A stretch of 64,000 nucleotides of DNA from Paludibacter sp. GTDB lineage: Bacteria > Bacteroidota > Bacteroidia > Bacteroidales > Paludibacteraceae. Made by a program: the position numbers and the translations under genes. Positions 11,161 through 48,175 of this stretch are shown piece after piece. Position 1 is the first letter of the stretch; each line of letters opens with the position of its first letter. Below the pieces are notes generated by a model. It searched no databases, was not told where the DNA came from, and worked only from the letters and a program-made list of their open reading frames with translations. The DNA lies in contig JAQVAV010000001.1 in NCBI GenBank assembly GCA_028690665.1, positions 248,001 through 312,000 of the forward strand. Reading direction: 5' to 3'.

Positions 11161-11171
11161 AAAAGCATCTT

Positions 11172-12938
11172 ATGAAAAAAGTAATATATATATCAATAAC
11201 ACTGTCAGCGCTTATTTTAAGCGCTTGCGGTGATTACTACGACACTCAGAATAATCCGGTTACATACGGAGAAACTTATCTGGACATGAAATTATCTACA
11301 GATAAGGCTTCTTATGCGCCGGACGAAACGGTTACTTTCACACTGAAAAACCTTCCTTCCGGAGCCAAAGTACGTTATTTTTATCTTGACGAAGCAATTG
11401 ATTCGGCTTCGCTGACAGACAAAACATGGACATGGACTCCACCAGCAGAAGACTATAAGGGTTACATGGCGGCAGTGTATACAACAAACAATAGTACTGA
11501 GGAGCTTTACACTTCCATTGCGGTGGATGTGTCTTCCGACTGGACTAAATTTCCACGTTATGGTTTTCTGTCAGACTATAGTAAAATGTCACAGGTATTT
11601 ATCGACAACAATATTGAAAGATTGAACCGCTACCATATCAACGGTTTGCAGTTTTACGACTGGCTTTATGACCATCAGCGTCCGTTGGCCGGAACCGCCG
11701 AAAATCCGGCTTCTTCGTGGTTGGATATTTTTGACCGTACAAACTACCTGTCTACCGTTCAGGGATATATTGCAGCAGCACAAAGCAAAAACATAAAAAC
11801 CATGTTTTACAATTTGTGCTACGGAGCCTTGGATGATGCAGCTTCCGACGGTGTAGAAGATGCATGGTATGTGTATACAGATCAGCAACATGGAAACAAG
11901 GATTACCATGAACTTTCAAGCGGTCGTAGCAATATTTATATTGTAAATCCGGCCAATACTGATTGGCAGCAATATCTTGTTAAACGTAACAACGATGTTT
12001 ACAGTGTCTTTGGTTTTGATGGCTATCACATCGACCAACTCGGTTACCGTGGAGACCGTTACGATTACGATGGAAACTCTATTAATATGACGGCAGGATA
12101 CGGATCATTTATTAATGCCATGAAAACAGCAGAACCAAACAAAAATCTGGTATTTAATGCTGTCGGTGGATATGGTCAGTCGGACATTGCTAATGCAGAT
12201 GTGGATTTTCTGTATGCCGAAGTTTGGGGTGCCCGTAGTGGAGATGAACCTGAAAATTCGTATGCAGATTTAATCTCACTTATGCGCGACAATGTTGCTC
12301 AAAGTAATTCTGAGAAAAACATAGTATTGGCAGCCTACATGGATTATGATATTTCAACAACATCGGGCTATGTCAACAAACCCGGAATATTATTGGCAGA
12401 TGCTTCTATTTTTGCCTGGGGTGGAGCTCACCTCGAGTTAGGAGAACATTACCTGACCAATGAATATTTTCCGAATGACAATTTACAAATGAAATCGGAT
12501 TTGGGACAGGCTTTGGTAAATTATTACGACTTTTTGGTGGCATACGAAAATCTGCTTCGCGATGGAGGAGAATTTCAGGCAGCGGATGTAACGTTTCTGA
12601 ACGAAAGCATAACAGCCGCCCGTTGGCCGGCAGATAAAGGACAGGTAGCTACAATCGGCAAAAAAGTAAACGGAAAGGATGTGATTCATCTGATTAATTT
12701 TACTGATGCCAACTCTATGCAGTGGAGAGATTCGAAAGGGACTCAGGCTGAGCCAACATTGATTACGGCGCCTTCTGTAAGCATCCCGGTTTCCGGAACG
12801 GTTTCAAAAGTTTGGTTTGCTTCTCCAGATATTAATAATGGCTTAGCTAACAACCTGCCGTTTACCCAAAGTGGAGATCAGGTTACCGTCACACTTCCAT
12901 CTCTTAAATACTGGGATATGATTGTAGTGGAATACTAA
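11172..12938 (+). CDS. GH66-family dextranase-like lipoprotein
   Basis: Start refined from track 11082 to the in-frame ATG at 11172 (MKKVIYISITLSALILSACGDYYD); FPRYGFLSDYSK, INGLQFYDWLYDHQRPL, FGFDGYHIDQLGYRGDRYDYDG are GH66-like strings. Confidence 0.85.
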   Translation: MKKVIYISITLSALILSACGDYYDTQNNPVTYGETYLDMKLSTDKASYAPDETVTFTLKNLPSGAKVRYFYLDEAIDSASLTDKTWTWTPPAEDYKGYMAAVYTTNNSTEELYTSIAVDVSSDWTKFPRYGFLSDYSKMSQVFIDNNIERLNRYHINGLQFYDWLYDHQRPLAGTAENPASSWLDIFDRTNYLSTVQGYIAAAQSKNIKTMFYNLCYGALDDAASDGVEDAWYVYTDQQHGNKDYHELSSGRSNIYIVNPANTDWQQYLVKRNNDVYSVFGFDGYHIDQLGYRGDRYDYDGNSINMTAGYGSFINAMKTAEPNKNLVFNAVGGYGQSDIANADVDFLYAEVWGARSGDEPENSYADLISLMRDNVAQSNSEKNIVLAAYMDYDISTTSGYVNKPGILLADASIFAWGGAHLELGEHYLTNEYFPNDNLQMKSDLGQALVNYYDFLVAYENLLRDGGEFQAADVTFLNESITAARWPADKGQVATIGKKVNGKDVIHLINFTDANSMQWRDSKGTQAEPTLITAPSVSIPVSGTVSKVWFASPDINNGLANNLPFTQSGDQVTVTLPSLKYWDMIVVEY

Positions 12939-12970: not shown

Positions 12971-13000
12971 AGAGGCTGTTTTTCGACAGCCTCTTTTTTG
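12971..13000 (+). terminator. Rho-independent terminator-like hairpin
   Basis: AGAGGCTGT/ACAGCCTCT stem followed by TTTTTT. Confidence 0.85.
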
Positions 13001-13115: not shown

Positions 13116-15761
13116 ATGAAAAAATTATTATTCACACTATTTTTCGGACTGTATGGTATCCCTGTCATTTTTGGACAAATAACCATTTATGATGGGGAAA
13201 CCGTGACTGCAGATTTTTGGGACATTGGAGGTGGTTTTGTAGATGGTGAATATACAGAGGGACCTAATGGAGCTGATTGTCATCAGGGGGAAGGTTGGAA
13301 ACTCTATGTTTCTGGTAAAATGGACATTCTTTCCGGAGATATTAACAATCCCGATTCTACAGGAGAAAACACAACGTCCAAAGTCATACGACTAATCAGA
13401 AATCCAAATGGTGAAGGCTGGGCTGGTGCGTATTGGGATATTTCTTCATACAATATAGATATAAGTACTAAAAATCATTTCAGCCTTTTGATAAAAAAAA
13501 CAATTGCAGGGAATGTAACCATGAAATTAGAAGGTGCGGGATCTCAAGAAGTCACAACTTATTATACTACCCCGAATGAATGGCAACAACTTGATTTTTA
13601 TTTTGACGCAACAAATTTTTCAGGGTCTCCAACTACACTTTTTGTTTTTCCTCATAATCAAACAGATCTGAGTGAAAATATTATTACTTATTTTGATGAA
13701 ATTTCTGTTTACGATGGAACAACTGCCAATGTTATTTTTGACGGTTCGGATGATAGTTCTTTAAATTTGCTTGATGGATATTGGTCTCCTAATGGAGATC
13801 TAAATAATTTAGAAACAGATTTATTTCCAAATCTCTATCAGGACAAAATAAACTCATCAAATCATGTAATACGATTTTTAAGAGCTATGGACGGTTATAA
13901 CTGGTGTGGCCTAGGAATTAATGATTTAGATATTGATCTGTCTGTCACTCCAGTTATTAGTCTTATGATAAACAAATCCATTGCAGGTACAGTTGGGCTG
14001 GAACTCGATGGAGCCGGCACAAAAGAATTATTTGCCGAATACACAACTCCTGGTCAATGGCAAAGACTTACCTTTAAATTCAAAAGTAGTGATTTTACCG
14101 GGAATCCTACAACTATGATTATTCACCCTCATTACGAAGAAACAGACCAGACAAACCTTAACTATCACACTCCAATATATATCGACAATATTTTATTAAG
14201 AGATACAGTTACATTCCCTACAGACTATTTCAGATCTGTATCGTCAGGAAACTGGAACAGTACTTCAACATGGGAATCATCGTATAACAATCAGGATTGG
14301 ATTGAATCTGAAACAGTTCCGAACAATCAGGCTACCGAAATTCACATAAGTACAGGCAATCTTGTAACAATACCTTCAAATTGTACTGCCTCTGAATTAT
14401 ATATTGATGCAGGGGGCAAACTTACTGTCAACGAAACCGAAAGCCTCAGTTGTGACTCATTATATATTTTAAGTGATGCAACATCAGGAACAGCAACTTT
14501 TATCAATAACGGGACAGCCAATATAAATTCTGCTAAAGTGAATCAATACCTGACTTATCGTTCGTGGTATATGTCGTCGCCAGTAAGTGAATCATATGCA
14601 TTATCAGAAACTGACCTTATAAAATATTACGATGAAACTACCAATACATGGAAGTCAAGTTCAACATTAGAACCCGGTAAAGGATATATTGTGAATCCTA
14701 CCAACGATGGAGATGAAAGCCTTTCATTCTGCGGAACATTGAATGATGGCGATCAATCCATATCACTCACTTATACAAATGGTGTAAACAAAGCAGGTTT
14801 TAATCTAATTGGTAATCCGTATCCGTCGTATTTAAAATGGACAGATGTCTATAATGCGAATCAGTCCTTTTTATCTACCTCTACAATGTGGTATCGTACA
14901 AAATATAACGGCATCTATTATTTCTGGACTGTGAACGGAGCTAGCGGGGAGACTATCGGCGATGAGGCCAGTCAGTATATTCCGCCAATGCAGGCTTTCT
15001 GGGTAAGGGCTTCAGCTTCGGGAAATCTGACACTGACCAATACCATGAGAAGTCATGCTCCGTCAAGTAATTTTTTGCTGAAAGCTCCTCAACTCCAATC
15101 ATCGGGAAAAATTTCAGTGAGATTAGTAGTAAGCAATGGGACCAATTCAGATGAAGCACTTATTTATACAAATTCTCAAGCCTCAGATGGTTATGACATT
15201 TATGATTCTCCGAAAATGAGTAACGAAAACAGTAAAATACCTGAAATATATACCGAAGTGACCGGACAACATTTAGCCATTAATGGAATGCAACAAATAC
15301 CATTAGATCAAGACATTACACTTGGGCTAGTTGAAGGAGAATCCACTGAACTCACCGTAAAAGCCTCTGAGTTAAACAATATATCGGATGGATGTAAGGT
15401 CATTTTAAAAGACAAATTATTAGATATCGAAACAGAGCTGGCTGATACAAATACTACTTACGATTTTGTTCCGGTGACTGATGCTCCAGACCGGTTTAGC
15501 GTTATTTTCAAAACATCGGGAACTGTAACGAGAACAAAAACTTTGAATAACAAGATGTTTGCATTCAGTAATAAAGGACAAATAACAATTGTTGATAATA
15601 CGGATCTGGATATTACAGAATTCGAAATTTACAACGCGTTGGGAAGAAAAATCACCACACAAATAAAAACAGGGAATCAAATAACAGTTGATACTGTATT
15701 TCCGACCGGAATTTATTTTATTCACTACGGAAATAATGTATTGAAAGTTATCGTAAAATAA
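13116..15761 (+). CDS. T9SS-sorted secreted protein with two tandem beta-sandwich/CBM-like modules
   Basis: 881 aa, signal peptide, two related modules (IKKTIAGNVTMKLEGAG... and INKSIAGTVGLELDGAG...), C-terminal FEIYNALGRKITTQI...FPTGIYFIHYGNNVLKVIVK sorting domain. Confidence 0.8.
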   Translation: MKKLLFTLFFGLYGIPVIFGQITIYDGETVTADFWDIGGGFVDGEYTEGPNGADCHQGEGWKLYVSGKMDILSGDINNPDSTGENTTSKVIRLIRNPNGEGWAGAYWDISSYNIDISTKNHFSLLIKKTIAGNVTMKLEGAGSQEVTTYYTTPNEWQQLDFYFDATNFSGSPTTLFVFPHNQTDLSENIITYFDEISVYDGTTANVIFDGSDDSSLNLLDGYWSPNGDLNNLETDLFPNLYQDKINSSNHVIRFLRAMDGYNWCGLGINDLDIDLSVTPVISLMINKSIAGTVGLELDGAGTKELFAEYTTPGQWQRLTFKFKSSDFTGNPTTMIIHPHYEETDQTNLNYHTPIYIDNILLRDTVTFPTDYFRSVSSGNWNSTSTWESSYNNQDWIESETVPNNQATEIHISTGNLVTIPSNCTASELYIDAGGKLTVNETESLSCDSLYILSDATSGTATFINNGTANINSAKVNQYLTYRSWYMSSPVSESYALSETDLIKYYDETTNTWKSSSTLEPGKGYIVNPTNDGDESLSFCGTLNDGDQSISLTYTNGVNKAGFNLIGNPYPSYLKWTDVYNANQSFLSTSTMWYRTKYNGIYYFWTVNGASGETIGDEASQYIPPMQAFWVRASASGNLTLTNTMRSHAPSSNFLLKAPQLQSSGKISVRLVVSNGTNSDEALIYTNSQASDGYDIYDSPKMSNENSKIPEIYTEVTGQHLAINGMQQIPLDQDITLGLVEGESTELTVKASELNNISDGCKVILKDKLLDIETELADTNTTYDFVPVTDAPDRFSVIFKTSGTVTRTKTLNNKMFAFSNKGQITIVDNTDLDITEFEIYNALGRKITTQIKTGNQITVDTVFPTGIYFIHYGNNVLKVIVK

Positions 15762-15777
15762 TTCACAAAAAGGAAAT

Positions 15778-15945
15778 ATGGAAATTCAACTAAAATCAAA
15801 AAAAACACGAAAGGAATACAATAAACCAACAATATATATGATTCAATTAGATAATCAGATTTCGCTGCAATTGGAGTCTGAACCTTCGATACCTCCCGAT
15901 GAAGTTTACAATACTCAACAAAAAGATCCATTCTATAATGCATAA
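15778..15945 (+). CDS. Small 55-aa protein (K-x-Y-x-K-P...DPFYNA type), not in ORF track
   Basis: My translation: MEIQLKSKKTRKEYNKPTIYMIQLDNQISLQLESEPSIPPDEVYNTQQKDPFYNA*, starting 16 nt after the upstream stop, with AGGAAAT upstream of ATG. Confidence 0.65.
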   Translation: MEIQLKSKKTRKEYNKPTIYMIQLDNQISLQLESEPSIPPDEVYNTQQKDPFYNA

Positions 15946-16180
15946 ATATAAAATATTTAACCCAATCAACATACTATAAAATTAAAATTCATGCATTTTT
16001 CATAGATACTCTCAGACAATATCAAACCAGAAGATAAACTAAAGTTATTCTATCTCAAACTTTTTCCAGGATAATATAATTCAGTACATTCCAATTTAAT
16101 TGAACATATAAAATAGTAGCCATAAAAAATCAACACTTTAGAATAAATTAAACAAGTATGAATCACAAATCTAATACATT

Positions 16181-17638
16181 ATGAAATATATTTCTACAAA
16201 AAAGCTTATTTCATTAATTCTATGTTTTTATATCATTACTACCCCTTTATTGGCAACACTCATTGATAATAGCTCAAACGAATTTAAGACAAATTCAATT
16301 GATTTACAATACAATATCGGAAGTTGGGAGGTAAATCAGGATGGATTGAATTGCTATATGGGAAGTTTGGGAGATGGTTTTCTGTTTTCAAATACAACGG
16401 CTCAAAATTTTATATTTGAAACTGATGTTGTATTTCATAGTACGAGCGAATCTGTAGCTTCATTGTTATTTGGCTCAAACAATGATCTTAATCAAAAGAA
16501 TATGTATGTAGCCAATATTAATCCCAATAATGGCGTAACTCGTCTGTTTAAGTTTCAATATAATTCAGTTGAGACACAGGCTTTTGATTTGGTGAGTAAA
16601 AAAAGTGTTGCACAAACAAATAACAACTCTTACCATTTGAGTGTGACAGTTATCGGCAAACATATTGTATTTAGGGTAAACGGAGAAGTAGTAGCCAATA
16701 CAGCCGACTATACAAGTACGGACATTTACGGACAAAATGACGCTTTTATAGGCAATTATCTTGGACTATTGTCGTGGAATGCCAACTGCACCCATCAAAA
16801 TTTATATGATGGCAGACCCTGAAAGAAGGAGGATGGAGTTATATTAGACTGGACAGAAGATTCTTTTTACAATGGTGTTTTTAGAGATCAAAAGTTTTTC
16901 GTTTCCAAAACAAGTGGCTTATGGTAATTGCAGGAGGCCCGTTAAGGATATATTCATCCGACAATTTACTCGACATCCTCTTATTCGAACATAGATGCCG
17001 AATGTCCTAACCTTGTGCGTTTACCGGTTATTGATAACGGACAGATTGTAGAATACAAATGGCTTCTAAGTCGTACCGGACGAATTTATAAAGCAGGTGA
17101 TTTTCTGCAACAAGATGGAAAATGGCAATTTGGTCCTGATTCCGAATACGAATCTGATAATGGCATAATGAACTTTGGAAAAGATGCTTATGCTCTGCAA
17201 ACTTATTATTAGGGCGAATTCGGCGAAGATCAATCAAGAATAATAGCTATTAGCTGGCTGAATAGCTGGGATTATTCCTCTCATGACGATCAGCCTTTTG
17301 GAAATGACATATATAATGGAAGTTTCACCGCCAATGTAGAAATTTATCCCCTGACAAGTATTTGGAACGAAAATAACACAACAGGAATAATCAATCATTA
17401 CGTTCAATTCGGGACAATTTTATTAACAAAAGAGAATAACGAAAATTATATAATCAAAGGAGTCGAGGAAGAAATTGCACAACTTCTTAATATTTCCGGA
17501 CAAATCATGAAAACGATTCCCATTGAAAATTATCAAACTACAATAAATCTTTCGGGGATAAAACAAAATATAATTTTAGTTCTTGTTATTACTAAAAATG
17601 AAACTGATGAAACTGAGACATTTAAAATATCAATATAG
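16181..17638 (+). pseudogene. Decayed GH32 levanase-like gene with N-terminal concanavalin-like domain and T9SS-like tail
   Basis: Intact signal and N-terminal domain to TGA at 16820; then VFRDQKFF / frameshift NKWLMVIAGGPLRIYSSDNL / frameshift back SSYSNIDAECPNLVRLPV...SDNGIMNFGKDAYALQTYY, TAG at 17210, then GEFGEDQSRIIAISWLNSWDYS...FKISI to 17638. Confidence 0.85.
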
Positions 17639-17842
17639 AACCTTATTAAACAATAAGTTAACATATTTGTTTTTAATAAAGAATCTTTATCAAAAATTAA
17701 GATGATGTATCAAAAATACTTGAATTTGAAACAAATATTATATAAATTGATGTAATACAACCATAATTTTGTATCAATAAATTGTGTAGCTACAATAATA
17801 TATTTAATCAACAAATCATTAACCATACATTAATCTAATATT

Positions 17843-20800
17843 ATGTATTGTCTAAAAAATCTCAATCATTTCAAAAGGCTTATACTGTCTTTACTAATAG
17901 CAGCAGCAAGTTCTTTTATTAATGCACAAACAAATAACATTTCAGGGTTAGTTACGGCAACTGAAGATGGGTTACCTCTTATTGGTGTTTCAATACAAAT
18001 TAAAGGAACAACATCGGGTACAATCACTGATATTGACGGGAAATACAACATCAAAGCAAACAGTGGTCAGACACTCGTTTTTTCGATGGTAGGCATGAAA
18101 ACCGAAGAAATTCAGGTAAAAAGCAAAACCGTCATCAATGTTACATTGGACCCCGATTCAAAAATGCTCGATCAGGTAATTGTTACCGGATATACCAGTC
18201 AGAAAAAAGCGGATCTCACAGGAGCAGTTTCGGTGGTAAAAGTAGACGAAATGATGAAATCTGCCGAAAACAATCCGATGAAAGCCTTACAGGGCAGGGT
18301 TGCCGGAATGACAGTAAGTGCCGATGGAAATCCGAGTGGTTCAGCAACTATCCGCCTGCGGGGTATCGGTACGCTGAACAACAACGACCCGCTGTTTATT
18401 ATCGATGGCATGCCTTCGAAAGCCGGAATGCACGAACTTAATTCGAACGACATTGAGAGCATTCAGGTACTGAAAGATGCTTCCGCTGCGAGTATTTACG
18501 GCTCACGTGCTGCCAATGGCGTAATCATCATTACCACCAAACAAGGGAAGCAGGGAAAAGTAAAAGTTAATTTCGACTCGTACCTTACTGCCTCATTTTA
18601 CACCCATCATTTGCAGACTCTCAACTCGAAAGAGTACGGACAAGCACTTTGGCAGGCAAACATAAACAGCGGTACCGACCCCAACAGCAATAATATCGGA
18701 TACAGTTATGACTGGAACTATGATGCGGATGGCAATGCTGTAATGAATAATCTCTATCTTCCCAAATATCTGGACAATGCAGGGACAATGTATTCGAGCG
18801 ATACTGACTGGTTCAATGAAGTTTCACGAACCGGTATCATTCAGTCTTACAATATGTCTGTGAGCAATGGTACCGACAAGGGAAACTATTATTTTTCATT
18901 GGGTTATTTTGATAATGAAGGAATCATAAAATATTCCAATTTCGACCGTATTTCGGCTCGTATTAACACCGACTACAAACTGCTTGGCGGTATGCTAACC
19001 ATTGGCGAAAATTTTACGCTGAACCACACTTCTGAAGTTCAGGCTCCGGGCGACGTATTGGATTTATCGTTGAAAGCCCTGCCGATGGTACCGGTACATA
19101 CCATCGACGGCGAAGGTTGGGGTGGTCCTACCAATGGAATGAACGACAGACAGAATCCTGTTAGGCTTATTACCTATAATAAAGACAATGCTTACAGTTA
19201 CTGGCGTACTTTTGGTAATGCTTTTGCCGATTTACAACCTTTGAAAAATTTACATTTCCGTACAAGTTTCGGAATTGATTATGGAAACTATTTTAAACGA
19301 TATATGGATAAAACCTATACATCCGGTTTCTTGAGCAATACAACAAGTGCTGTCAACTTAGAACAAAGCCATTCGATGAAATGGAATTGGGCAAATACCG
19401 TTACCTATAAAAAAACGATAGAAAAACACGATTTCGATTTGTTGGGAGGGATGGAAATGTTCCGTCAATCAGACATCAGTTTCAACGCCTACACTTCGGG
19501 GGTGAATGCCTTTGTGATAGAAACTCCTGAATATATGTGGCCAGGTGTAAGTACCGGGAAAGCGCAGGTAGGCGGAGGAGAAACAGGTTATTCGCTGCTG
19601 TCTTATTTCGGCAAAGCAAACTACGTTTATGACAACCGTTATTTGGCATCCGCTACTATTCGCCACGACGGCTCATCCCGTTTTGGAAAAAACAACCGAT
19701 GGGGTACTTTTCCCGCATTTTCGCTCGGATGGCGTATTTCCGAAGAAGCTTTTATGGAAAACACAAAAGGTTTTCTTTCCGATTTAAAACTACGCGCAGG
19801 CTGGGGACAAACAGGTAATCAGGAGATTGACAACTATGCTACTTACACTATTTTTGTTCCCGATTACGGCGTAGCCGATCCTACATGGGCGATTGTCAAC
19901 GGAACAGCTTACGATATTAACGGAAGCGGTTCGGGAACATTGCAGGCAGGATTCCGCAAAATTCAATCGGGTAACGACGACTTGAAATGGGAAACAACCA
20001 TCCAAACCAATGTCGGTCTTGATTTCGCATTTTTCAACAACACGCTTTACGGTTCGGCGGAATATTACATCAAGGATACGAAGGATATTCTTATCAAGCC
20101 TGCCTATCTTGGTGCCGTAGGTGAAGGAGGAGATCGTTGGGCAAATGGAGCTTCAATGGAAAACCGAGGTTTCGAAGTCCTTGCCGGATGCCGCAATAAA
20201 ACAAGTTTTGGTCTAAATTATGATATCGCTGCCAATATATCCGGATTCAGGAATAAAATTACCTACCTGCCTGAAGAGGTTGAAAATTCCTATGGAGGAC
20301 GCGCTGGTGATAATATACTCGGACACCCTTATGGCTCTTTTTACGGCTATGTAGCCGATGGAATTTTCAAAACTCAGGAAGAAGTGGATAATCATGTAAC
20401 TCAGGAAGGCAAAGCAGTTGGTCGTATCCGTTACAAGAACGTGTATGAAGAAGATGGAAAAAATGAAATAAATTCGATGGATCAGACATGGATCGGGAAT
20501 CCCTATCCCGATTTTTCTTACGGACTCAATATCAATTTAGAATATAAAAATTTTGATTTAAGTATTTTCTTTCAAGGGGTACAAGGCGTTGATATTGTCA
20601 ACAGTATAAAATATCAAACCGATTTCTGGAGTGTGGACGATGTCAATTCTAACAAAGGACAACGGGTATTAAATGCGTTCCACCCTGTAACAAATCCTGA
20701 TTCAGATATTCCGATGTTGCAAAGTACAAATACGAACAACGAAGGACGGTTTTCAACCTATTATGTAGAAGACGGTTCGTATATGAAACTACGGAATGTT

Positions 20801-20989
20801 CAGTTGGGTTATACGCTACCGTCAGATTTTACAACTAAAATTAAGATAGACAGGCTCCGTTTTTACATCAGCGGACAAAACTTGCTCACAATTCATTCAA
20901 AAGACTATACGGGTGTTGACCCGGAAAATTCAGGATTTGGTTATCCGATACCCACTACTTGTACATTTGGTTTCAATTTAACTTTCTAA
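17843..20989 (+). CDS. SusC/RagA-family TonB-linked outer membrane protein
   Basis: 1048 aa; ISGLVTATEDGLPLIGVSIQIKGTTSGTITDIDGKY; LDQVIVTGYTSQKKADLTGAV; barrel; followed by SusD. Confidence 0.97.
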   Translation: MYCLKNLNHFKRLILSLLIAAASSFINAQTNNISGLVTATEDGLPLIGVSIQIKGTTSGTITDIDGKYNIKANSGQTLVFSMVGMKTEEIQVKSKTVINVTLDPDSKMLDQVIVTGYTSQKKADLTGAVSVVKVDEMMKSAENNPMKALQGRVAGMTVSADGNPSGSATIRLRGIGTLNNNDPLFIIDGMPSKAGMHELNSNDIESIQVLKDASAASIYGSRAANGVIIITTKQGKQGKVKVNFDSYLTASFYTHHLQTLNSKEYGQALWQANINSGTDPNSNNIGYSYDWNYDADGNAVMNNLYLPKYLDNAGTMYSSDTDWFNEVSRTGIIQSYNMSVSNGTDKGNYYFSLGYFDNEGIIKYSNFDRISARINTDYKLLGGMLTIGENFTLNHTSEVQAPGDVLDLSLKALPMVPVHTIDGEGWGGPTNGMNDRQNPVRLITYNKDNAYSYWRTFGNAFADLQPLKNLHFRTSFGIDYGNYFKRYMDKTYTSGFLSNTTSAVNLEQSHSMKWNWANTVTYKKTIEKHDFDLLGGMEMFRQSDISFNAYTSGVNAFVIETPEYMWPGVSTGKAQVGGGETGYSLLSYFGKANYVYDNRYLASATIRHDGSSRFGKNNRWGTFPAFSLGWRISEEAFMENTKGFLSDLKLRAGWGQTGNQEIDNYATYTIFVPDYGVADPTWAIVNGTAYDINGSGSGTLQAGFRKIQSGNDDLKWETTIQTNVGLDFAFFNNTLYGSAEYYIKDTKDILIKPAYLGAVGEGGDRWANGASMENRGFEVLAGCRNKTSFGLNYDIAANISGFRNKITYLPEEVENSYGGRAGDNILGHPYGSFYGYVADGIFKTQEEVDNHVTQEGKAVGRIRYKNVYEEDGKNEINSMDQTWIGNPYPDFSYGLNINLEYKNFDLSIFFQGVQGVDIVNSIKYQTDFWSVDDVNSNKGQRVLNAFHPVTNPDSDIPMLQSTNTNNEGRFSTYYVEDGSYMKLRNVQLGYTLPSDFTTKIKIDRLRFYISGQNLLTIHSKDYTGVDPENSGFGYPIPTTCTFGFNLTF

Positions 20990-21001
20990 TATTTACATAC
21001 G

Positions 21002-22681
21002 ATGAAAAATATTAAATTCATATTTTCTATTTGCCTGTCAGTGTTCCTACTGTCAGCATGTTCCGATTTTCTGGACGAAAAAGCCAAAGGTATTCTTACC
21101 TCCGACGAGGTAAAAGACACTTACGAGGATGCGCTTACCGCAGCTTACTCCGCTTTGGGCAACGATCACTATGATGTTCCTCTCAGTCTCTGGCCATACG
21201 GCACGGTTCGTTCCGACGACGCCTACAAAGGAGGTTCAGGCGAACAAGACATTTCGACTTTTCATTTTTTTGAAGTGTCGAACAATATCACCACCGAATT
21301 CGGCGAGGTCGACAAGCTCTGGTATCAATGTTATGTAGCCATATCAAGGGCAAATTCGGCAATCAACGCGATTAACGCTGCCGACGATTTCGAAGGAAAA
21401 GGAGCAAAAATAGCTGAAGCGCGCTTCTTACGCGGACATTTTTATTTTCTGTTGAAGATTTTATTCAAATATGTTCCCTATGTAGATGAAACAACTCCTG
21501 TTTCCAATTACGGAACGATATCGAACAGGGCGTTGACAAACGATTCGCTTTGGCAAAAAATAGCCGACGATTTCAAATACGGAGTGGACAGTCTGCCGGC
21601 AACACAAACAGAAAAAGGCAGAGCCGACAAGTATGCCGCCGCAGCTTATCTGGCAAAAACATATCTATATAAAGCTTACCATCAGGATAATGAAGAATCA
21701 AATGAAGTTACTTCTATCAATGCCGACGATTTACAGAAGGTTGTTGATTATGCCGATATGGTAATAGGGTCGCCGTACAATCTCGAAAGTGATTTCGGGT
21801 TCAATTTTCTGCCCGGAGATTATGAAAATGGCATTGAATCTATTTTTGCCGTACAATATTCGGGCGAAGATGGCACAAAATTCGGTAGGGTAAATTTTGC
21901 CGACTTGCTTTCTGTACCAATGGGTTTGGGGTGTTGCGACTTTGTAAAACCTTCGCAAACACTCGTGAATGCATTCAGTACACAAAACGGATTGCCGGTG
22001 TTCGAGGGTTACAACACGAATGAGAGCGGATATGCTAACCAGAACGACCCCCGTCTGTTTCACACCGTGGCATTGCCCGGGCTGCCATACAAATACAACG
22101 AATCGCTGATATACGAAAACGACTGGAACCGCAATCCGACGACCTACGGCTATTATGCTTCGTTGAAAGAAAATGTTGACCCAACCTGCGATTGTTTTGT
22201 GGAAATGGTACCATTTTATGCCAATACTAAAAACAGAATACTGATTCGCTATGCCGATGTACTGCTAATGAAAGCCGAAGCTTTGATAGAATTGCATCGT
22301 TCGGGCGAAGCCTTGAATCTAATAAACGCTGTTCGCAACAGGGCAAAAAACAGTACTGTGTTAATTTCTTATGCATCAAAAAAAATAAACATCAGTTTGT
22401 ATCAAGACGGAGTTAATTGCACTTGGGACGAACCTTTTGCCCGTCAAGCCTTGCGCTGGGAACGGCGTCTGGAGCTTGCCATGGAAAACGGACGATTCTT
22501 CGATCTGGTACGCTGGGGCGTTGCACAAGATGTGATGAATGATTACTATAATGTTGAAAAAAATCGCCGATACTATTATAAGGACGCACAATTCAACAAA
22601 AACAGAAACGAATATCTACCGATACCCGAAGCGCAAATCAAGTTCAGCAAATATCTATACAAGCAAAATGTAGGATATTAA
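21002..22681 (+). CDS. SusD/RagB-family nutrient-binding lipoprotein
   Basis: LLSACSDFLDEKAKG; ARFLRGHFYFLLKILFKYVPYVDE; DVLLMKAEALIEL; ERRLELAMENGRFFDLVRWG; C-terminal YLYKQNVGY. Confidence 0.97.
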   Translation: MKNIKFIFSICLSVFLLSACSDFLDEKAKGILTSDEVKDTYEDALTAAYSALGNDHYDVPLSLWPYGTVRSDDAYKGGSGEQDISTFHFFEVSNNITTEFGEVDKLWYQCYVAISRANSAINAINAADDFEGKGAKIAEARFLRGHFYFLLKILFKYVPYVDETTPVSNYGTISNRALTNDSLWQKIADDFKYGVDSLPATQTEKGRADKYAAAAYLAKTYLYKAYHQDNEESNEVTSINADDLQKVVDYADMVIGSPYNLESDFGFNFLPGDYENGIESIFAVQYSGEDGTKFGRVNFADLLSVPMGLGCCDFVKPSQTLVNAFSTQNGLPVFEGYNTNESGYANQNDPRLFHTVALPGLPYKYNESLIYENDWNRNPTTYGYYASLKENVDPTCDCFVEMVPFYANTKNRILIRYADVLLMKAEALIELHRSGEALNLINAVRNRAKNSTVLISYASKKINISLYQDGVNCTWDEPFARQALRWERRLELAMENGRFFDLVRWGVAQDVMNDYYNVEKNRRYYYKDAQFNKNRNEYLPIPEAQIKFSKYLYKQNVGY

Positions 22682-22711
22682 CCATATAATTGTAAAAAAC
22701 ATGAAACCAAC

Positions 22712-22761
22712 ATGATTAAAATAATTATTAAACACCCGTAGGGAATGATTATTTTAATCAT
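22712..22761. repeat. 18-bp inverted repeat (1 mismatch) between susD and the SusE-position gene
   Basis: ATGATTAAAATAATTATT (22712-22729) pairs with AATGATTATTTTAATCAT (22744-22761), 14-nt loop AAACACCCGTAGGG. Confidence 0.85.
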
Positions 22762-22803
22762 CAAAGGTTCCATACGACCCGAAAAAAAATAAAAAATAAA
22801 CGT

Positions 22804-23898
22804 ATGAAAAACTTCAGATATATCATCATAGCATTCACATCATTAATTTTTTTAGCCGGATGTGAGAAATCCGACCGTGACACTGTTGATTTGAGCGGAG
22901 ATGTAAATATTTTATCTTTCACGGTAAACGGACACGAAGCCGTTGTGGACAATAAAGCTTTGACTGTAAAATTGCTGCTTCCTCCCGGAACAGATTTGAC
23001 ACAATTGAAACCGGTAGTTGAAATTCCCGAAGGAGCAACAGTTTCCCCAGCATCAGGTACAGAGCTGGATTTTAGCACTTCCGCGACAACTCCGATTGAA
23101 TATACAGTATATAATAAAAATGTATATAGCACCTACAAAGTTAAAATAGAAGAAATAAAGGCAAAAATAACCTTATTCAAAATAGGCAATACTGTCGGCG
23201 AAATCGATGAAGCCAATAAAACCATTACCCTGTACATGACAGAAGGCACTGATGTAAGCAATGTAATCCCGACTATCACATACACCGAAGGAGCAGAAAT
23301 ATCTCCTGCAATCGGCACGTCGATAGATTTAACTAATCCGGTAATTTACACGCTCACGTATGCCGGAACACAATTTACGTATACGGTCAGCGTTGAGTTC
23401 GGATCTGCTCCGGGCTTAGTTCTTTTCAATGGTGAAGATGTAAAACCTGAATGGGGCAGCATTGCAGCTATGGTAGAAAGTCCTTACGCTAACCCGAAAA
23501 CCGATGGCATCAACGCTACACCTTACTGCGCTTCCATTATACGCGATGGCAGCGATACCGATGCAGGTGGAAAACCATGGTCAGGAGGTGCGTTATGGAA
23601 TAGCTATAAAGTGAATATAGACCCTGCCCTTTATGGTAGTTTTACACTGATGGTATTAAAAAATGTAGCAGGTGATGTGCAACTCGAAATTCAGTCGGAC
23701 GGCGAGCAGAATAAAGACTGGTTGAAAGTGTGGTATTCTGAAGACAATTTGGGCAAATGGCAGAAACTGACCTTTGTGATTCCCGAAGGACGCACAGCTG
23801 TCATCAACAACATATTAGTAGCTCCTCATTGCCATGATGCCGGTACTTTTTCAACGCAACGGATGTATTGGGACGAACTGACCGCGATGCCAAAATAA
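22804..23898 (+). CDS. SusE-position surface glycan-binding lipoprotein: two DUF5018-like repeats plus C-terminal CBM-like module
   Basis: Lipoprotein signal (FLAGCEKSD); duplicated LSFTVNGHEAVVDNKALTVKLLLPPGTDL.../LFKIGNTVGEIDEANKTITLYMTEGTD...; C-terminal VLKNVAGDVQLEIQ...GKWQKLTFVIPEG...YWDELTAM. Confidence 0.8.
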   Translation: MKNFRYIIIAFTSLIFLAGCEKSDRDTVDLSGDVNILSFTVNGHEAVVDNKALTVKLLLPPGTDLTQLKPVVEIPEGATVSPASGTELDFSTSATTPIEYTVYNKNVYSTYKVKIEEIKAKITLFKIGNTVGEIDEANKTITLYMTEGTDVSNVIPTITYTEGAEISPAIGTSIDLTNPVIYTLTYAGTQFTYTVSVEFGSAPGLVLFNGEDVKPEWGSIAAMVESPYANPKTDGINATPYCASIIRDGSDTDAGGKPWSGGALWNSYKVNIDPALYGSFTLMVLKNVAGDVQLEIQSDGEQNKDWLKVWYSEDNLGKWQKLTFVIPEGRTAVINNILVAPHCHDAGTFSTQRMYWDELTAMPK

Positions 23899-23971
23899 TA
23901 AAACCCGGAATGAAACCCTCATGTATTTTTTACCTCTGGGGGGCATTCAACAATTAACAAACAGATCAGTT

Positions 23972-25516
23972 ATGAAATTTAATATTTCAATATTTATACT
24001 ATGGGCTTTGCTTTCTTGCTCCGCTTGTGGTGAAAATGGGCAGAATCCGGAAGAACCAACTATTGATGTATCGCTTGACAAACGCACGATACAGGAGGAT
24101 GGAGCTTATCAGATTTTTTATAAAACAGCCAATGACATTACCGGCGACCCAATGCCTTACTACAACGAACAGGACAAAACTATTTATGTGTTTTACCTTT
24201 CCACCGTTGTTGGAAAAAGCGGTGTATGTTTGACAAAAACAACAAATTTTGCCTCCTTTGGCGTTGCTTCCAACATAGTACAGGTTGGCGGCACAGGCAG
24301 TTGGGATACGGGCATCGGCACAGGTTCCTGCATTAAAAACGGTTCGCAATACGTGTTTTTTTATACCGGATTCAGCAATCAATCGCCTTCGTCGGTAGTG
24401 CTGAAAGCAGTATCAAACGATATGCGTACCTGGACAAAAGTACCTTCGTTCCGTATTGAAGCTCCGAACAATTTTGACCGGAATGAATTTCGCGATCCTT
24501 GTGTTTATTTCGACGATACACGCGGAAAGTATGTAATGCTCGTAGGCGGACGCAAATTGGGAAAAGCCTCTATTGTTCGTTTCGAATCTGCCGACCTAAA
24601 TGATTGGCAAGCGATAGAACCGCTTACAGCTACTACATCTGACAATCCACAAGTATATGAAGTGGAAACAGATACGGAGATACACGAGTGCCCCGACATT
24701 TTTAAAATGGGCGACAAATGGTACTTGGTTTTTAGCCGCATCAACCGAGATATGCACCGGAAAACCTATTACCGCATTGCCGACAATCCGAATGGTCCTT
24801 GGAAGATTGCACGCGATGCAGACGGACATCACGAAACCTTCGACGGGCTTTATCTATATGCCGGAAAAACCAGTTCTGACGGAACAGCCCGTTACGTTTC
24901 GGGATGGGCTTCGACAGGACAAAGTTTTAACGCAAGTAACGAATTGGACTGGGGTGGCTGTTTGGTAACACACGAGATTGTACAACAGTCAAATGGTAAA
25001 CTCTATCCGAAAATTTCCGATGCGGTCGACGCCAAATTTTCTAAGTCCGTTGAATATAAAGATATCAAACGTACGGGAAATGTATCTGGAAGTAATGGAA
25101 GTTTTTCGTTGAATGGTGGAAAAGTCATTTTCAACCGCAATGCTGCTTCTGTAAAAATAGAAATGACCATTAATGCTTCGCAGGTGACAAAAAATTTCGG
25201 AATTGCGTTTGGTGCATACGAAAATCAGCAGGATACTTACGATATTAAGTTCGATTTGACCGCAGAGAATCAATATGGTCTGCCTACGCTGTTTCTGTTC
25301 CACGACAGTAAAGAGCATAATTTTACGCCGCTCATCGTACCTCAAAATAAAATTTTTAATGTAAAAATCATTATTGAAAAATCGATTTGCGCAATGTATA
25401 TCAACAACAATGTGGCATTTACAAACCGGATAACGAATATGAATCAAAATCCGTGGATGATATTTGCCAACGAAGGCACCGTAAAATTTTCAGATATAAA
25501 AATATATAAGCAGTAG
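23972..25516 (+). CDS. GH32-family lipoprotein (divergent nucleophile motif)
   Basis: Start refined to the in-frame ATG at 23972; LLSCSACGEN lipoprotein; GDPMPYYNEQDKTIYVFYL, NEFRDPCVYFDD, EIHECPDIFKMGDKWYLVFS; C-terminal beta-sandwich. Confidence 0.85.
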   Translation: MKFNISIFILWALLSCSACGENGQNPEEPTIDVSLDKRTIQEDGAYQIFYKTANDITGDPMPYYNEQDKTIYVFYLSTVVGKSGVCLTKTTNFASFGVASNIVQVGGTGSWDTGIGTGSCIKNGSQYVFFYTGFSNQSPSSVVLKAVSNDMRTWTKVPSFRIEAPNNFDRNEFRDPCVYFDDTRGKYVMLVGGRKLGKASIVRFESADLNDWQAIEPLTATTSDNPQVYEVETDTEIHECPDIFKMGDKWYLVFSRINRDMHRKTYYRIADNPNGPWKIARDADGHHETFDGLYLYAGKTSSDGTARYVSGWASTGQSFNASNELDWGGCLVTHEIVQQSNGKLYPKISDAVDAKFSKSVEYKDIKRTGNVSGSNGSFSLNGGKVIFNRNAASVKIEMTINASQVTKNFGIAFGAYENQQDTYDIKFDLTAENQYGLPTLFLFHDSKEHNFTPLIVPQNKIFNVKIIIEKSICAMYINNNVAFTNRITNMNQNPWMIFANEGTVKFSDIKIYKQ

Positions 25517-25552
25517 CATTATTAAAACAATAATTTAAAAAAGAAAACTATT

Positions 25553-26263
25553 ATGAAAAAAACATTTTTACTTTCATTATTTTGTATTGCATTCTTAGGT
25601 TTGAATGCACAAACATTAGTTATCAGCAACGGTGAAGACACTGGTTTAAACTGGTGGCAGGCAGGTTCAACCGCAGTAGAAATTGTAGATTGGCATCCAA
25701 AAGAAGGTAACACATCAGAAAAATCCATGACAATCTGGATTAGTCCTATCAGTGATCAATGGTCCGGAGGTGGGCTTAGCGGATTAGATATAGACGTAAA
25801 CGTTTATAATACCATTTCAGTTTTAGTTTATAAAAATGTAACCGGTACAGTCCGTCTGGAATTACAAGATGGAACAGCTAATTACTTTGTAACAGCCGAT
25901 TATACCACTGCTAGTGTATGGCAAAAATTAGAATTCACTATTCCGAGCGAAATGGGCAATATCACAACACTTCTCATTGCTCCTTTTATTGATTATGATT
26001 TATCAACCATAACTGGCGAAGAAAGCCGTTGCTTTTGGGATGAAGTAATAGCCTACAATGACACTACTACAGGATTAAACGAAATACAGTCTGATAATTC
26101 AGCAATTGTTCGCACGGATATTTATACTTTGTCAGGTGATCTGATACACTCTGTTGCTGGCAACCAGAAAATAGATTCGTCTATTTTATCAAAAGGTTTG
26201 TACCTGATCAGACAAATAACCGAAACGGGAAACGTTACCTGCAAAAAAGTATGTATAAAATAG
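25553..26263 (+). CDS. Small T9SS-sorted protein with a single CBM-like module
   Basis: Signal peptide; VYKNVTGTVRLELQDG...WQKLEFTIPSE...FWDEVIAYND; C-terminal YTLSGDLIHSVAGNQKIDSSILSKGLYLIRQITETGNVTCKKVCIK. Confidence 0.8.
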   Translation: MKKTFLLSLFCIAFLGLNAQTLVISNGEDTGLNWWQAGSTAVEIVDWHPKEGNTSEKSMTIWISPISDQWSGGGLSGLDIDVNVYNTISVLVYKNVTGTVRLELQDGTANYFVTADYTTASVWQKLEFTIPSEMGNITTLLIAPFIDYDLSTITGEESRCFWDEVIAYNDTTTGLNEIQSDNSAIVRTDIYTLSGDLIHSVAGNQKIDSSILSKGLYLIRQITETGNVTCKKVCIK

Positions 26264-26805: not shown

Positions 26806-28566
26806 ATGAAAAAATACATTTTAGTTTTCATCCTTCCATTCATCCTTTTTTACACAAGTTGTAAATCACAAAGAAATCAGAATAATGAAGTGACCAAGGA
26901 ATACAAAATCACTTCTTCTTATATATTAATTCCGGTCGAAGAGAAATCCAAAGAAATTAAAATTGCGGTACAATTTCCGGATAAAAAAACAGCCGAATAT
27001 TATTGGATCCGAATTGCAGAAGACAAACCTGATTATTGGGTAAAACTGGATGTCGGAGAATATAAAAACAAAACTATTAAAATTGGTTTTGAAAACGCAA
27101 GCCAAGTTTCATCGGGAATTGAGGAAATCTATCAATCAGATAAATTCAATATCCAATATGAAGAAACTTACCGTCCTGATTTTCATTTCTCACCCGAATA
27201 TGGATGGATGAACGATCCTAATGGGCTTGTTTATCTTGATGGCGAATATCATTTATTCTATCAGTATAATCCATATGGCAACATGTGGGGCAACATGCAT
27301 TGGGGACATGCAGTAAGTACAGATCTGACATCCTGGACTTATTTACCGATAGTTCTGAAACCGGATACACTTGGCGATATTTTTTCAGGGAGTGCAGTTG
27401 TTGATGTAAATAACACAGCAGGTTTCGGCAAAAATGCGATCATAGCCATTTATACTTCCAACGGTAAGACTCAACAACAATCGATAGCTTATAGTACAGA
27501 TAAAGGACGAACATTTACAAAATATAATGGAAATCCAGTGATTCCGAATCCGGGGATTGTAGATTTTCGTGACCCCAAAGTATCATGGAACGCTGTTGCC
27601 AACCAATGGGTCATGACTTTAGCCACCAAACAGACCGTAACTTTTTACGGATCCGATAATTTAAAAACCTGGACAAAACTCAGTGAATTCGGAGATGGTA
27701 TCGGTTCACATGCCGGAGTTTGGGAATGTCCCGATTTATTCCCACTCGAATATAACGGACAAACAAAATGGGTGCTGACAGTAAGCCTTCACGGTGGTCC
27801 TAATGGAGGTACTGCCACTCAATATTTTATTGGAAATTTTGATGGAAAATCGTTTAAACCCGACATTCTCCCCTACCCCCTTTGGATGGACTATGGACGT
27901 GATAACTATGCCGGAATAACATGGAATAACATTCCGGATAAAGATGGGCGCAGAATATTTATAGGTTGGATGAATAACTGGGATTACGGAAATAACTTAC
28001 CTTCCAAATTCTTCCGTAGCTCAAACACTATTCCTTGTCAACTTTTTCTTAAAAATAACGGAAAACACATAATACTTGCATCATATCCCGTAAGTGAAAT
28101 AACGCTTTTGAGAGATAAAACATTTGACAAGCCCGACATACATGTTTCGGGAGAGTCATCTATCAACGAATTAATTCCGAATAACAACGGAAGTTATGAA
28201 CTAACTTTTGACATTGAAAATATCAATACAAATGAATTTGGATTTCAATTAATCAACAACAAAAACGAATTTCTTAAATACAACTTTGATTTATTATCAG
28301 GCACTCTATATTTAAACCGGGCACAAAGTGGTCTAACAAATTTCAATGATTTATTCTCACTGGGCATGGGAGCACCATTAGTTTTAGGTGAAAAATATAA
28401 TGTAAGATTACTTATTGATAAAGCATCCGCAGAACTTTTCGTAAACGAAGGTGATGTAACCATGACAAGCCTCTTTTTCCCGACAGAAGTAATGAACAAA
28501 CTTATTTTTTACACCAAAAACGGATCAATAAATATACATAACATAAAAGTCTATGATATAAAATAA
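26806..28566 (+). CDS. GH32 beta-fructosidase/levanase-like lipoprotein
   Basis: Lipoprotein signal (LFYTSCKSQ); FHFSPEYGWMNDPNGLVYLDGEYHLFYQYNP, VDFRDPKVSW, WECPDLFPLEYNG. Confidence 0.96.
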   Translation: MKKYILVFILPFILFYTSCKSQRNQNNEVTKEYKITSSYILIPVEEKSKEIKIAVQFPDKKTAEYYWIRIAEDKPDYWVKLDVGEYKNKTIKIGFENASQVSSGIEEIYQSDKFNIQYEETYRPDFHFSPEYGWMNDPNGLVYLDGEYHLFYQYNPYGNMWGNMHWGHAVSTDLTSWTYLPIVLKPDTLGDIFSGSAVVDVNNTAGFGKNAIIAIYTSNGKTQQQSIAYSTDKGRTFTKYNGNPVIPNPGIVDFRDPKVSWNAVANQWVMTLATKQTVTFYGSDNLKTWTKLSEFGDGIGSHAGVWECPDLFPLEYNGQTKWVLTVSLHGGPNGGTATQYFIGNFDGKSFKPDILPYPLWMDYGRDNYAGITWNNIPDKDGRRIFIGWMNNWDYGNNLPSKFFRSSNTIPCQLFLKNNGKHIILASYPVSEITLLRDKTFDKPDIHVSGESSINELIPNNNGSYELTFDIENINTNEFGFQLINNKNEFLKYNFDLLSGTLYLNRAQSGLTNFNDLFSLGMGAPLVLGEKYNVRLLIDKASAELFVNEGDVTMTSLFFPTEVMNKLIFYTKNGSINIHNIKVYDIK

Positions 28567-28610: not shown

Positions 28611-29951
28611 ATGCAAAACAAAAAATTTCTCTACTGGATCACTTTCGTAGCCATTAACGGAGGATTACTTTTCGGGTTGAATATGGCCGGAATCTCAGGC
28701 GCTGTTGATATGATCAAGTCTGAATTTTCGCTGACCGACAGCGGACTCGGCACAGTAGCCGCACTACTCACCATCGGTTGCCTGATCGGAGCTCTTTTCA
28801 CAGGTAATTTTACCGAAAAGTTCGGTCGCAAGAAAGTGATGATTTTTACTTCTTTATTGTACATTATCTCTGCTTTAGGCTGCGCATTGGCAGAATCTTC
28901 GGCCATGCTGACGGTTTTTCGCATTTTATCCGGATTAGCTGTAGGAGCCACTTCGGTAGTCGGCCCCATGTATATTTCCGAAATTTCACCGGCCCGCAAC
29001 CGTGGTATGTTAGTGTCTATGAATCAGTTTGCCATCACCATAGGTATTGTACTGGCTTATGCCATCGATTATTTATTCATGGATTTGGGAGATAACAGCT
29101 GGCGCTATATGATGGTAGTTCCTGCTGTTTTCGGAGTTTTATATTTCATTTTCTTATTGATACGGTTTCCCGAAAGTCCCCGCTGGCTGCTTGCCAAAGG
29201 GATGAAAGACGAAGCTTCTGCTGTTTTGAAAAAAATCGGAGGAAACGAGCTTGTCGAAGTAGAACTGCCCGAAATGGAAAAAACGTTGAAAACCGAAACA
29301 AAAGCTGAAAAAGTTTCGTTCGGAGAACTCTTCCGGGGAAAAACCGGAAAAATTGTACTTATCGGTACCCTGATTGCTGCTCTGCAACAGATCACAGGCA
29401 TCAACGCAATTATCATGTTTGCACCTGAAATGTTCAAAGCCGCGGGTTCGGCACAGAGCGATTCTATGATGCAATCATTAATTGTAGGCTTGGTCAATTT
29501 TCTGATGACTATTGTAGCTCTCTGGTTAGTTGATAAAAAAGGAAGAAAAACTTTACTCCTCTGGGGAGCCGTAGGAATGATTGTTTCTTTGGCCTATCTT
29601 ACTTTTGAGTTTTCGAAACCGGAACAGTTCGGCGTTGGCGTACTCATTGCCCTGCTTGTATACATTTCATTTTTTGCAGCATCTTTTGCCCCGGTTATGT
29701 GGGTAATTATTTCTGAAATTTATCCAAACCGTATCAAAGGATTGGCCATGTCATTCTCTACTGCTGTCAGCTGGCTGTGTACTTTCCTGACAGTGTATTT
29801 CGCACCTGTTATTCAGGGATCACTCGGATTGAACTATCTGTTTGGTATTTTCGGCATCTTCAGTATTATTGCTTATGTTTTTGTAAAAATATGGATACCG
29901 GAAACTAAAGGAAAAACATTGGAACAAATCGAAAAAGAATTGAAATTATAA
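28611..29951 (+). CDS. MFS sugar porter-family transporter (likely fructose/hexose)
   Basis: Twelve-TM-like protein; EKFGRKKVMI, FPESPRWLLAKG, QQITGINAIIMFAP, DKKGRKTLLLWG, WIPETKGKTLEQIE. Confidence 0.93.
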   Translation: MQNKKFLYWITFVAINGGLLFGLNMAGISGAVDMIKSEFSLTDSGLGTVAALLTIGCLIGALFTGNFTEKFGRKKVMIFTSLLYIISALGCALAESSAMLTVFRILSGLAVGATSVVGPMYISEISPARNRGMLVSMNQFAITIGIVLAYAIDYLFMDLGDNSWRYMMVVPAVFGVLYFIFLLIRFPESPRWLLAKGMKDEASAVLKKIGGNELVEVELPEMEKTLKTETKAEKVSFGELFRGKTGKIVLIGTLIAALQQITGINAIIMFAPEMFKAAGSAQSDSMMQSLIVGLVNFLMTIVALWLVDKKGRKTLLLWGAVGMIVSLAYLTFEFSKPEQFGVGVLIALLVYISFFAASFAPVMWVIISEIYPNRIKGLAMSFSTAVSWLCTFLTVYFAPVIQGSLGLNYLFGIFGIFSIIAYVFVKIWIPETKGKTLEQIEKELKL

Positions 29952-36172: not shown

Positions 36173-36649
36173 ATGTCAACATTTATCGGAAAATACGAGG
36201 CAAAAGCCGATGTAAAAGGAAGAATTTTTATTCCTTCGGTCTATCGCAAACTCTTACCCGATGGCGAGAGAGAGCGAATTGTTATGCATCGCGACTCTGA
36301 AAACGACTGTCTGATACTATATCCGGAACATGTATGGAATCATAAAGTTGCCCAGCTGAAATCCACACTTGACGAATGGAACCCGACGGATCAACTGATT
36401 TTAATGCAATTTATTTCGGCTGCCGAATGGCTCGATATCGATGCTCAAGGCAGAGTGCTGATTGCCAAAAAGCATCTGCAATCCATTGCTGTTGAAAATC
36501 AGGAAATATTGTTTGTCGGAATGATTGACAGATTTGCTGTGTGGGGCAAAACCCGTTTCGAACAAACGCTTATACCTCAAACTGATTTTGCTAAACTACT
36601 GAAAGAAAAAATGATGAAAAGCACCCTCAAATCTGAAGAAAAAATATAA
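36173..36649 (+). CDS. mraZ: Transcriptional regulator MraZ
   Basis: FIGKYEAKADVKGRIFIPSVYRKLL; first gene of the dcw cluster. Confidence 0.95.
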   Translation: MSTFIGKYEAKADVKGRIFIPSVYRKLLPDGERERIVMHRDSENDCLILYPEHVWNHKVAQLKSTLDEWNPTDQLILMQFISAAEWLDIDAQGRVLIAKKHLQSIAVENQEILFVGMIDRFAVWGKTRFEQTLIPQTDFAKLLKEKMMKSTLKSEEKI

Positions 36650-36663
36650 CCAATCCGTTTAGC

Positions 36664-37614
36664 ATGAAAAAAAAAGAGGGAAATATTGACGACATACAGA
36701 AATCCGGAGATGAAGCAGCATATCATATCCCGGCATTGCTCAACGAAACCATTGACGGCCTCAATATTAAACCTGACGGAATTTATGTTGATGTAACTTA
36801 TGGCGGCGGCGGGCACTCCAAAGAAATACTAAAGCGACTCGGACCAAAAGGCAAACTTTTGGGTTTCGATCAGGATCTGGATACAATTCACAATATCGTA
36901 AATGACAAACGCTTCATTTATGTAAGAAGCAACTTTAAATATCTGAAAAACTTTTTGCTTTACCACGGAATAGAAAAAATAGATGGTGTAGTAGCTGATC
37001 TGGGCGTTTCGTCACATCATTTCGATGAAGCCGAGCGTGGATTTTCATTCAGATTCGATGGAGCATTGGACATGCGCATGAATACCAGTTCACTACTGAC
37101 GGCGGCAAGCGTGCTGAATAACTACGAAGAAGACGCTTTGGCCAATGTATTTTATCTGTATGGAGAACTTCACAACTCCCGCAAAATTGCCCGGACTATT
37201 GTTCAGGCAAGGGCCAAAGAGCCTATCGAAAAAATTTTTCAGTTTATTGAAATTCTCAGGCCTTATTTCGGAAAAGAAAAAGAAAAAAAAGATATGGCGC
37301 GCGTTTTTCAGGCTTTACGCATTGAAGTAAATCACGAAATGGACGTTTTGGAAGATATGCTTTTACAGTGTGTAGAAATAATTAATTCGGGAGGAAGAAT
37401 TTCTGTACTGACCTATCATTCTTTAGAAGACAGGTTGGTAAAAAACTTCTTCAAAAGCGGAAATTTTGAAGGAAAAATAGAAAAAGATTTTTACGGAAAT
37501 ATCATTGCTCCAATCAGAGCTATAAATAATAAAGTAATCACTGCAAATACAGAAGAAGTAGAACGAAATCCGAGAGCACGAAGCGCTAAATTACGCATTG
37601 CAGAAGTTTTATAA
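36664..37614 (+). CDS. rsmH: 16S rRNA (cytosine1402-N4)-methyltransferase RsmH
   Basis: HIPALLNETIDGL, YVDVTYGGGGHSKEIL, VVADLGVSSHHFDEAERGFSFRFDGALDMRMN, YHSLEDRLVKNFF. Confidence 0.98.
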   Translation: MKKKEGNIDDIQKSGDEAAYHIPALLNETIDGLNIKPDGIYVDVTYGGGGHSKEILKRLGPKGKLLGFDQDLDTIHNIVNDKRFIYVRSNFKYLKNFLLYHGIEKIDGVVADLGVSSHHFDEAERGFSFRFDGALDMRMNTSSLLTAASVLNNYEEDALANVFYLYGELHNSRKIARTIVQARAKEPIEKIFQFIEILRPYFGKEKEKKDMARVFQALRIEVNHEMDVLEDMLLQCVEIINSGGRISVLTYHSLEDRLVKNFFKSGNFEGKIEKDFYGNIIAPIRAINNKVITANTEEVERNPRARSAKLRIAEVL

Positions 37615-37629
37615 ATAAAAACAGATAAA

Positions 37630-38022: not shown

Positions 38023-38031
38023 AAAGTAAAA

Positions 38032-40170: not shown

Positions 40171-40191
40171 AAACACTTTAACACCAACAGT

Positions 40192-41637: not shown

Positions 41638-41680
41638 GAAAAAGCTCTATTGTTATAAATCAAAATAAAACGTCCAAAGC

Positions 41681-42949: not shown

Positions 42950-42976
42950 AAAGAAATCTTTTTACAACGAAAATAT

Positions 42977-44311: not shown

Positions 44312-44316
44312 TTTTA

Positions 44317-45552: not shown

Positions 45553-45603
45553 TCAAACAGTCTGACAAGAACTGAATTACAGAATAAAACTTGACAAATA
45601 CTT

Positions 45604-46707: not shown

Positions 46708-46760
46708 AAACCGGACATTTCACCCGAATTATCTGTGTGTTTAATTTAGTTTTTTTGAAC

Positions 46761-48155: not shown

Positions 48156-48175
48156 CAGTCAGAACATCTCATCCC

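Follow-up and report, generated by a model that had tools for sequence, protein, structure and literature searches.

A predicted beta-jelly-roll module occupies the levan-domain position of a surface glycan-binding protein in a Paludibacter fructan PUL

The window analysed here, a 64,000-nucleotide stretch of Paludibacter sp. DNA, encodes three proteins that together carry four copies of a module of ~150–180 aa. The module is probably a fructan-binding CBM, located at the tip of an SGBP and in two T9SS-exported proteins of one fructan PUL. This reading draws on the homology and predicted fold of the copies, on the linkage of their close relatives to GH32 genes, and on the replacement by the module of an unrelated domain, DUF4960, at the C-terminus of SGBPs.

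Module copies, surface location and predicted fold

The module-bearing proteins and the four copies are located as follows.

13116–15761, plus strand: secreted protein 13116 (881 aa), composed of a signal peptide, copies A1 and A2, a beta-rich middle region and a T9SS type A sorting domain
13179–13718, plus strand: copy A1, residues 22–201 of the 13116 protein, with an N-terminal insertion
13731–14207, plus strand: copy A2, residues 206–364 of the 13116 protein
22804–23898, plus strand: SGBP lipoprotein 22804 (364 aa), with lipobox LAGC (Cys20), two Ig-like domains extending to residue 204, and copy B at the C-terminus
23416–23895, plus strand: copy B, residues 205–364 of the 22804 protein
25553–26263, plus strand: secreted protein 25553 (236 aa), composed of a signal peptide, copy C and a T9SS type A sorting domain, and nothing else
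about 25613–26065, plus strand: copy C, residues 21–171 of the 25553 protein

All six pairs among A1, A2, B and C are significant in BLASTP (E 3e-7 to 6e-29), with pairwise identities of 25–44%. Their pair scores lie 10 to 39 standard deviations (z) above those of shuffles, none of which equalled any real score, and 19 columns of the alignment are invariant in the four copies. A profile built from them matches just the same four copies in the 4.05-Mb genome. These results are in line with the initial annotation, which had aligned four copies by eye; the strings it quoted belong to real copies, but its module boundary was wrong, the true start lying farther upstream. Its description of the module as unannotated also holds, as Pfam and NCBIfam scans gave no model covering any of the four copies, and no match to a characterised family was found at curated thresholds. 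In the host proteins, Pfam and NCBIfam identify just the two T9SS tails, those of 13116 and 25553, and, near threshold, DUF5018 towards the N-terminus of 22804. A link to the hyaluronan-associated DUF4627/BT4411 was considered and dropped, NF058548 reaching just 15.9 bits against a cut-off of 220 and covering residues 1–63 only.

The sorting domain model TIGR04183 is matched above its cut-off by the 13116 protein (E 9.4e-7) and just above it by the 25553 protein (E 3e-5). SprA is encoded in the genome along with about 140 sorting domains of this type, so that both proteins combine a type A CTD with a T9SS that could export them. Together with the lipobox of 22804, these CTDs place all three proteins at the predicted cell surface. 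Elsewhere in the window, a SusE/SusF-like glycan-binding protein (1571–2965; PF16411 and Por_Secre_tail) likewise ends in a T9SS sorting domain and is not a lipoprotein.

An AlphaFold2 model of copy C, built with 57 aligned sequences, is all-beta (pLDDT 94.3, pTM 0.89), and the module is confidently predicted to be a CBM-type beta jelly roll. The nearest solved folds found by Foldseek are CBM22, CBM11, CBM4, CBM61 and 8QX6. CBM4/9, CBM22 and CBM11 share the jelly-roll fold (TM about 0.55–0.67) but differ from the module in gene context. Sub-threshold matches to CBM_4_9 (PF02018) occur in 12 of 57 members, the best with E 0.0017; the model misses the window copies, and the scores of all relatives remain well below its gathering threshold of 25.9 bits. 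As a discrete, non-catalytic domain of predicted CBM-type fold in carbohydrate-active proteins, the module has the general features of a CBM.

Gene context in the fructan PUL

The fructan PUL in the window spans from SusC at 17843 to the hybrid sensor at 30985–33747. The genes of this PUL and of the region upstream, apart from those listed above, are the following.

11169–12938, plus strand: GH66 (dextranase family) gene, PF13199 E 1.4e-201, in a neighbouring locus outside the module PUL
12971–12994, plus strand: hairpin resembling an intrinsic terminator, with 10 pairs followed by a T run, 3' of GH66 and 5' of 13116
16181–17638, plus strand: decayed GH32-like gene, detected by tblastn with the intact GH32 at 26806 (E 4e-6)
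17843–20989, plus strand: SusC homologue, TIGR04056
21002–22681, plus strand: SusD homologue, PF07980 and PF14322
23921–25516, plus strand: GH32 endo-levanase-like lipoprotein, a BT1760 homologue (E 1e-65 against 8a9y_E)
26806–28566, plus strand: GH32 fructan hydrolase, probably of exo type, PF00251 E 2.9e-94
28611–29951, plus strand: sugar (fructose) MFS transporter, PF00083
29951–30844, plus strand: fructokinase-like sugar kinase, assigned by sequence and position and syntenic in fructan PULs
30985–33747, plus strand: hybrid two-component sensor with a periplasmic sugar-binding domain, PF13407, PF02518, PF00072 and PF12833

The make-up of this PUL matches the levan PUL of B. thetaiotaomicron, a relative from the gut. 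In the GH32 at 23921, the nucleophile motif GDPMP and the RDP and ECPD motifs line up with those of BT1760, and the hybrid sensor has an arrangement like that of BT1754. The PUL is followed by an ordinary dcw cluster for division and cell wall synthesis (36173–51627; mraW, PBP, Mur ligases, ftsW, ftsZ).

Copies B and C lie within this gene set, while the 13116 gene adjoins a locus of GH66 type (SusC 5175, SusD 8183, SusE/F 9691, and GH66 ending at 12938). It starts ~178 bp past the end of GH66 on the same strand, an arrangement that would favour a single module shared by two PULs, one for dextran and one for levan, and serving both. The initial annotation had indeed placed the module across both PULs and considered that it might not be specific to one glycan. 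Four observations instead place 13116 with the fructan PUL. First, the terminator-like hairpin, a strong one that would close the GH66 operon, lies between GH66 and 13116. Second, a full-length relative of 13116 in locus L077 (48% identity) and a similar one in L083 are found just upstream of fructan SusC genes, with a single two-module protein intervening and no GH66. Third, the decayed GH32-like gene, which consists of a 213-aa N-terminal ORF with LamG-like similarity followed by GH32 fragments with frameshifts and stops, is situated between 13116 and the fructan SusC. Fourth, GH66 is absent in 14 of 23 module-bearing genomes, and in all 8 others besides the window genome it is on a different contig. 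The premise of two PULs therefore falls, and a role of the module in both dextran and levan use appears highly improbable. Searches for sigma-70 promoters at the locus gave matches at the shuffle mean, which were disregarded, and no Rfam element was found within 12900–34500. Judged from gene order and sequence comparison, all four copies are most likely part of a single fructan PUL of levan type.

Replacement of DUF4960 by the module

The 22804 protein resembles BT1761, the SGBP of the levan utilisome (8A9Y, 8AA2), in PUL type, gene order, lipoprotein nature and a homologous N-terminal Ig pair. Residues 6–202 match BT1761 (8a9y_T) with E 1.1e-22, and Foldseek aligns 22804 with 8aa2_G at E 9.9e-15. 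In BT1761, the Ig pair rests on SusC, and levan is bound by the ThuA-like domain at the C-terminus through W297 and W359, as demonstrated by ITC and cryo-EM (PMC7618045). Both proteins possess one C-terminal domain at the equivalent position; that of BT1761 is the ThuA-like DUF4960, the name carried by its PDB chain, whereas that of 22804 is an unrelated domain predicted to be a beta jelly roll. DUF4960 is absent from the 22804 protein and from the whole genome.

The same alternation is found among 54 SGBPs that share the 22804-type N-terminus: the module is present in 18 and DUF4960 in 36, whereas none has both and none has neither. The absence of SGBPs with neither domain is partly built in, as the loci were found via the module or DUF4960; the absence of SGBPs with both, and the common boundary, are not artefacts of locus gathering. 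The boundary between the Ig pair and the C-terminal domain lies at about residue 205 in the 54 SGBPs, except for a handful that are shorter at the N-terminus or shifted. The first SGBP tree requires two changes between DUF4960 and the module. A tree with a single clade of module SGBPs has higher likelihood and passes the AU test (p-AU 0.68). The data therefore call for no more than one swap, and a history of several was set aside. In addition, six DUF4960-type PULs (L010, L012, L085, L089, L090 and L106) encode a separate secreted module protein.

The distal position of copy B also bears on whether the module binds glycan at all. A spacer or protein-docking domain, organising surface proteins without glycan binding, would suit the occurrence of the module in tandem and in proteins that have no enzymatic domain. 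Such a role seems quite unlikely, since the lipobox and the T9SS CTDs already provide anchoring, the predicted fold matches CBMs, and the module sits in the distal ligand-binding slot of the SGBP. Moreover, it is more conserved than the Ig spacers, with 49 invariant columns in 160 residues of the module-type SGBPs compared with 19 in the 204 residues of the Ig part.

As a fructan-binding CBM, copy B would make up the outermost part of the SGBP in a utilisome of levan type. The Ig pair of 22804 would dock on SusC in the manner of BT1761, while copy B may catch fructan chains for transfer to SusCD and to the GH32 endo-levanase encoded next to it. The proteins carrying A1/A2 and C, as predicted T9SS cargo retained on the cell surface, could provide additional fructan capture. 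The presence of copy B in the slot of the BT1761 levan domain suggests a possible new route of surface fructan capture.

Relatives of the module and the probable ligand

Relatives were sought in 300 genomes of the family, 393 of the order and 396 of the phylum, and they fall into two tiers. The high tier (above about 90 bits) is confined to the order, whereas the low tier (about 20–70 bits) is spread over the phylum. Comparison with hhalign shows the two tiers to be homologous (99.8%, E 3.5e-28). A branch with SH-aLRT 95 separates the high tier, together with a few long-branch members (L089, L090 and L106), from all other sequences of the tree. Within the high-tier clade, sequences group by protein type, namely SGBP copies, C-type copies, and first and second copies of two-module proteins; this grouping indicates that the duplication predates these species. 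A few copies from two-module proteins (L087, L089 and L090) fall outside their protein-type groups. A highly divergent module of unsure place in the tree is found in L106 (10172–10654, minus strand), in a 316-aa protein adjoining a BT1760-like GH32 and a DUF4960 SGBP.

A GH32 gene is present in 19 of 21 high-tier loci and in 0 of 18 low-tier loci (Fisher p 3e-9, the loci being phylogenetically non-independent and many from one genus). The two high-tier loci without GH32 lie on short contigs, and both have a SusC of fructan type. Neither GH16 nor GH66 occurs in any of the 21 high-tier loci; the close relatives are GH32-linked and never accompanied by GH66 outside the window. In three of the module PULs (L083, L085 and L088) no clearly BT1760-like enzyme is found; these encode large GH32 proteins (758–774 aa) in which an insert interrupts the GH32 domain and the C-terminus resembles a T9SS tail. 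The fructan bound by the module may be of the beta-2,6 (levan) or the beta-2,1 (inulin) type.

In the low tier, GH16 is present in 10 of 18 loci. GH16 accompanies the distant relatives in L099, L100, L101, L102, L103, L104, L107 and L109, and the module is fused to GH16 in L099, L101, L102 and L107. These low-tier relatives, located beside or in GH16 enzymes, are candidates for unannotated CBMs binding beta-1,3-glucan.

The profile of the 32 high-tier members has a sole significant match in the PDB, 8QX6 (E 2.8e-6), which the low-tier profile matches with E 1.3e-15. According to its PDB title, 8QX6 is a "Novel laminarin-binding CBM X584". The four-copy profile does not reach 8QX6 in the PDB, and searching the PDB with 13116 or 25553 as single sequences returned nothing meaningful. 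CBM X584 shares detectable sequence homology and the fold (TM 0.65–0.72) with the module, but the identity is ~16–18%, its context is laminarin rather than fructan, and the fructan-linked copies cluster separately from the relatives nearer to 8QX6. The predicted fold and the distant relationship to the structure of a laminarin-binding CBM agree with the earlier proposal of a CBM-like surface glycan-binding module, as do the lipoprotein and T9SS export signals and the occupation of the slot of a proven levan-binding domain.

The module may alternatively have kept an ancestral preference for beta-glucan, or alpha-glucan, with its presence in the fructan PUL being incidental. The laminarin-binding name of the nearest solved relative, the distant relatives in or beside GH16 enzymes and the GH66 locus next door in the window are consistent with such a CBM. 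Against it stand the separate clade of the fructan-linked copies with its GH32 linkage and lack of GH16 and GH66, the replacement of a levan-binding domain in SGBPs, and group-specific residues. Tyr97, in the numbering of copy C, is found in 32 of 32 high-tier members, whereas the low tier has mostly Q, N or T and rarely Tyr. Pro124 is followed by His in 26 of 32 high-tier members, copy C being without it, and by Asp in 21 of 21 low-tier members. These two positions are candidate specificity positions, and retention of another glycan preference is rather unlikely.

A fructan-binding module would represent a beta jelly roll derived from a broad Bacteroidota CBM lineage whose other members accompany beta-glucan enzymes. 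We lean slightly towards a scenario in which a CBM lineage that also includes binders of beta-glucan (laminarin) was retargeted to fructan in Bacteroidales, replaced the structurally unrelated DUF4960 in the levan-utilisome SGBP and was duplicated into T9SS-exported capture proteins; the module would then represent a new fructan CBM family, and its arrival in the utilisome a non-homologous replacement. CBM66 shares with the module the presumed ligand, fructan, and we take it to be a separate fold lineage. Neither CBM66 nor CBM38 is among the best 50 Foldseek matches listed or the PDB matches of the high-tier profile. CBM66 is the module through which SacC of B. subtilis binds levan (PMC6560043). 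A literature search of incomplete coverage found CBM66 and the BT1761 domain as the only characterised levan-binding modules, and the module, as a fructan-linked clade, looks new.

Characterised non-catalytic fructan-binding domains are few. If the module binds fructan, two different domains would be able to do the same work at one SGBP position of the utilisome, and the requirements for an SGBP tip would become testable through domain swaps. Moreover, fructan PULs would extend their SusCD/SGBP/GH core with binding proteins exported by the T9SS, and the module would serve as an annotation marker for the fructan PULs of Paludibacter-like Bacteroidales.
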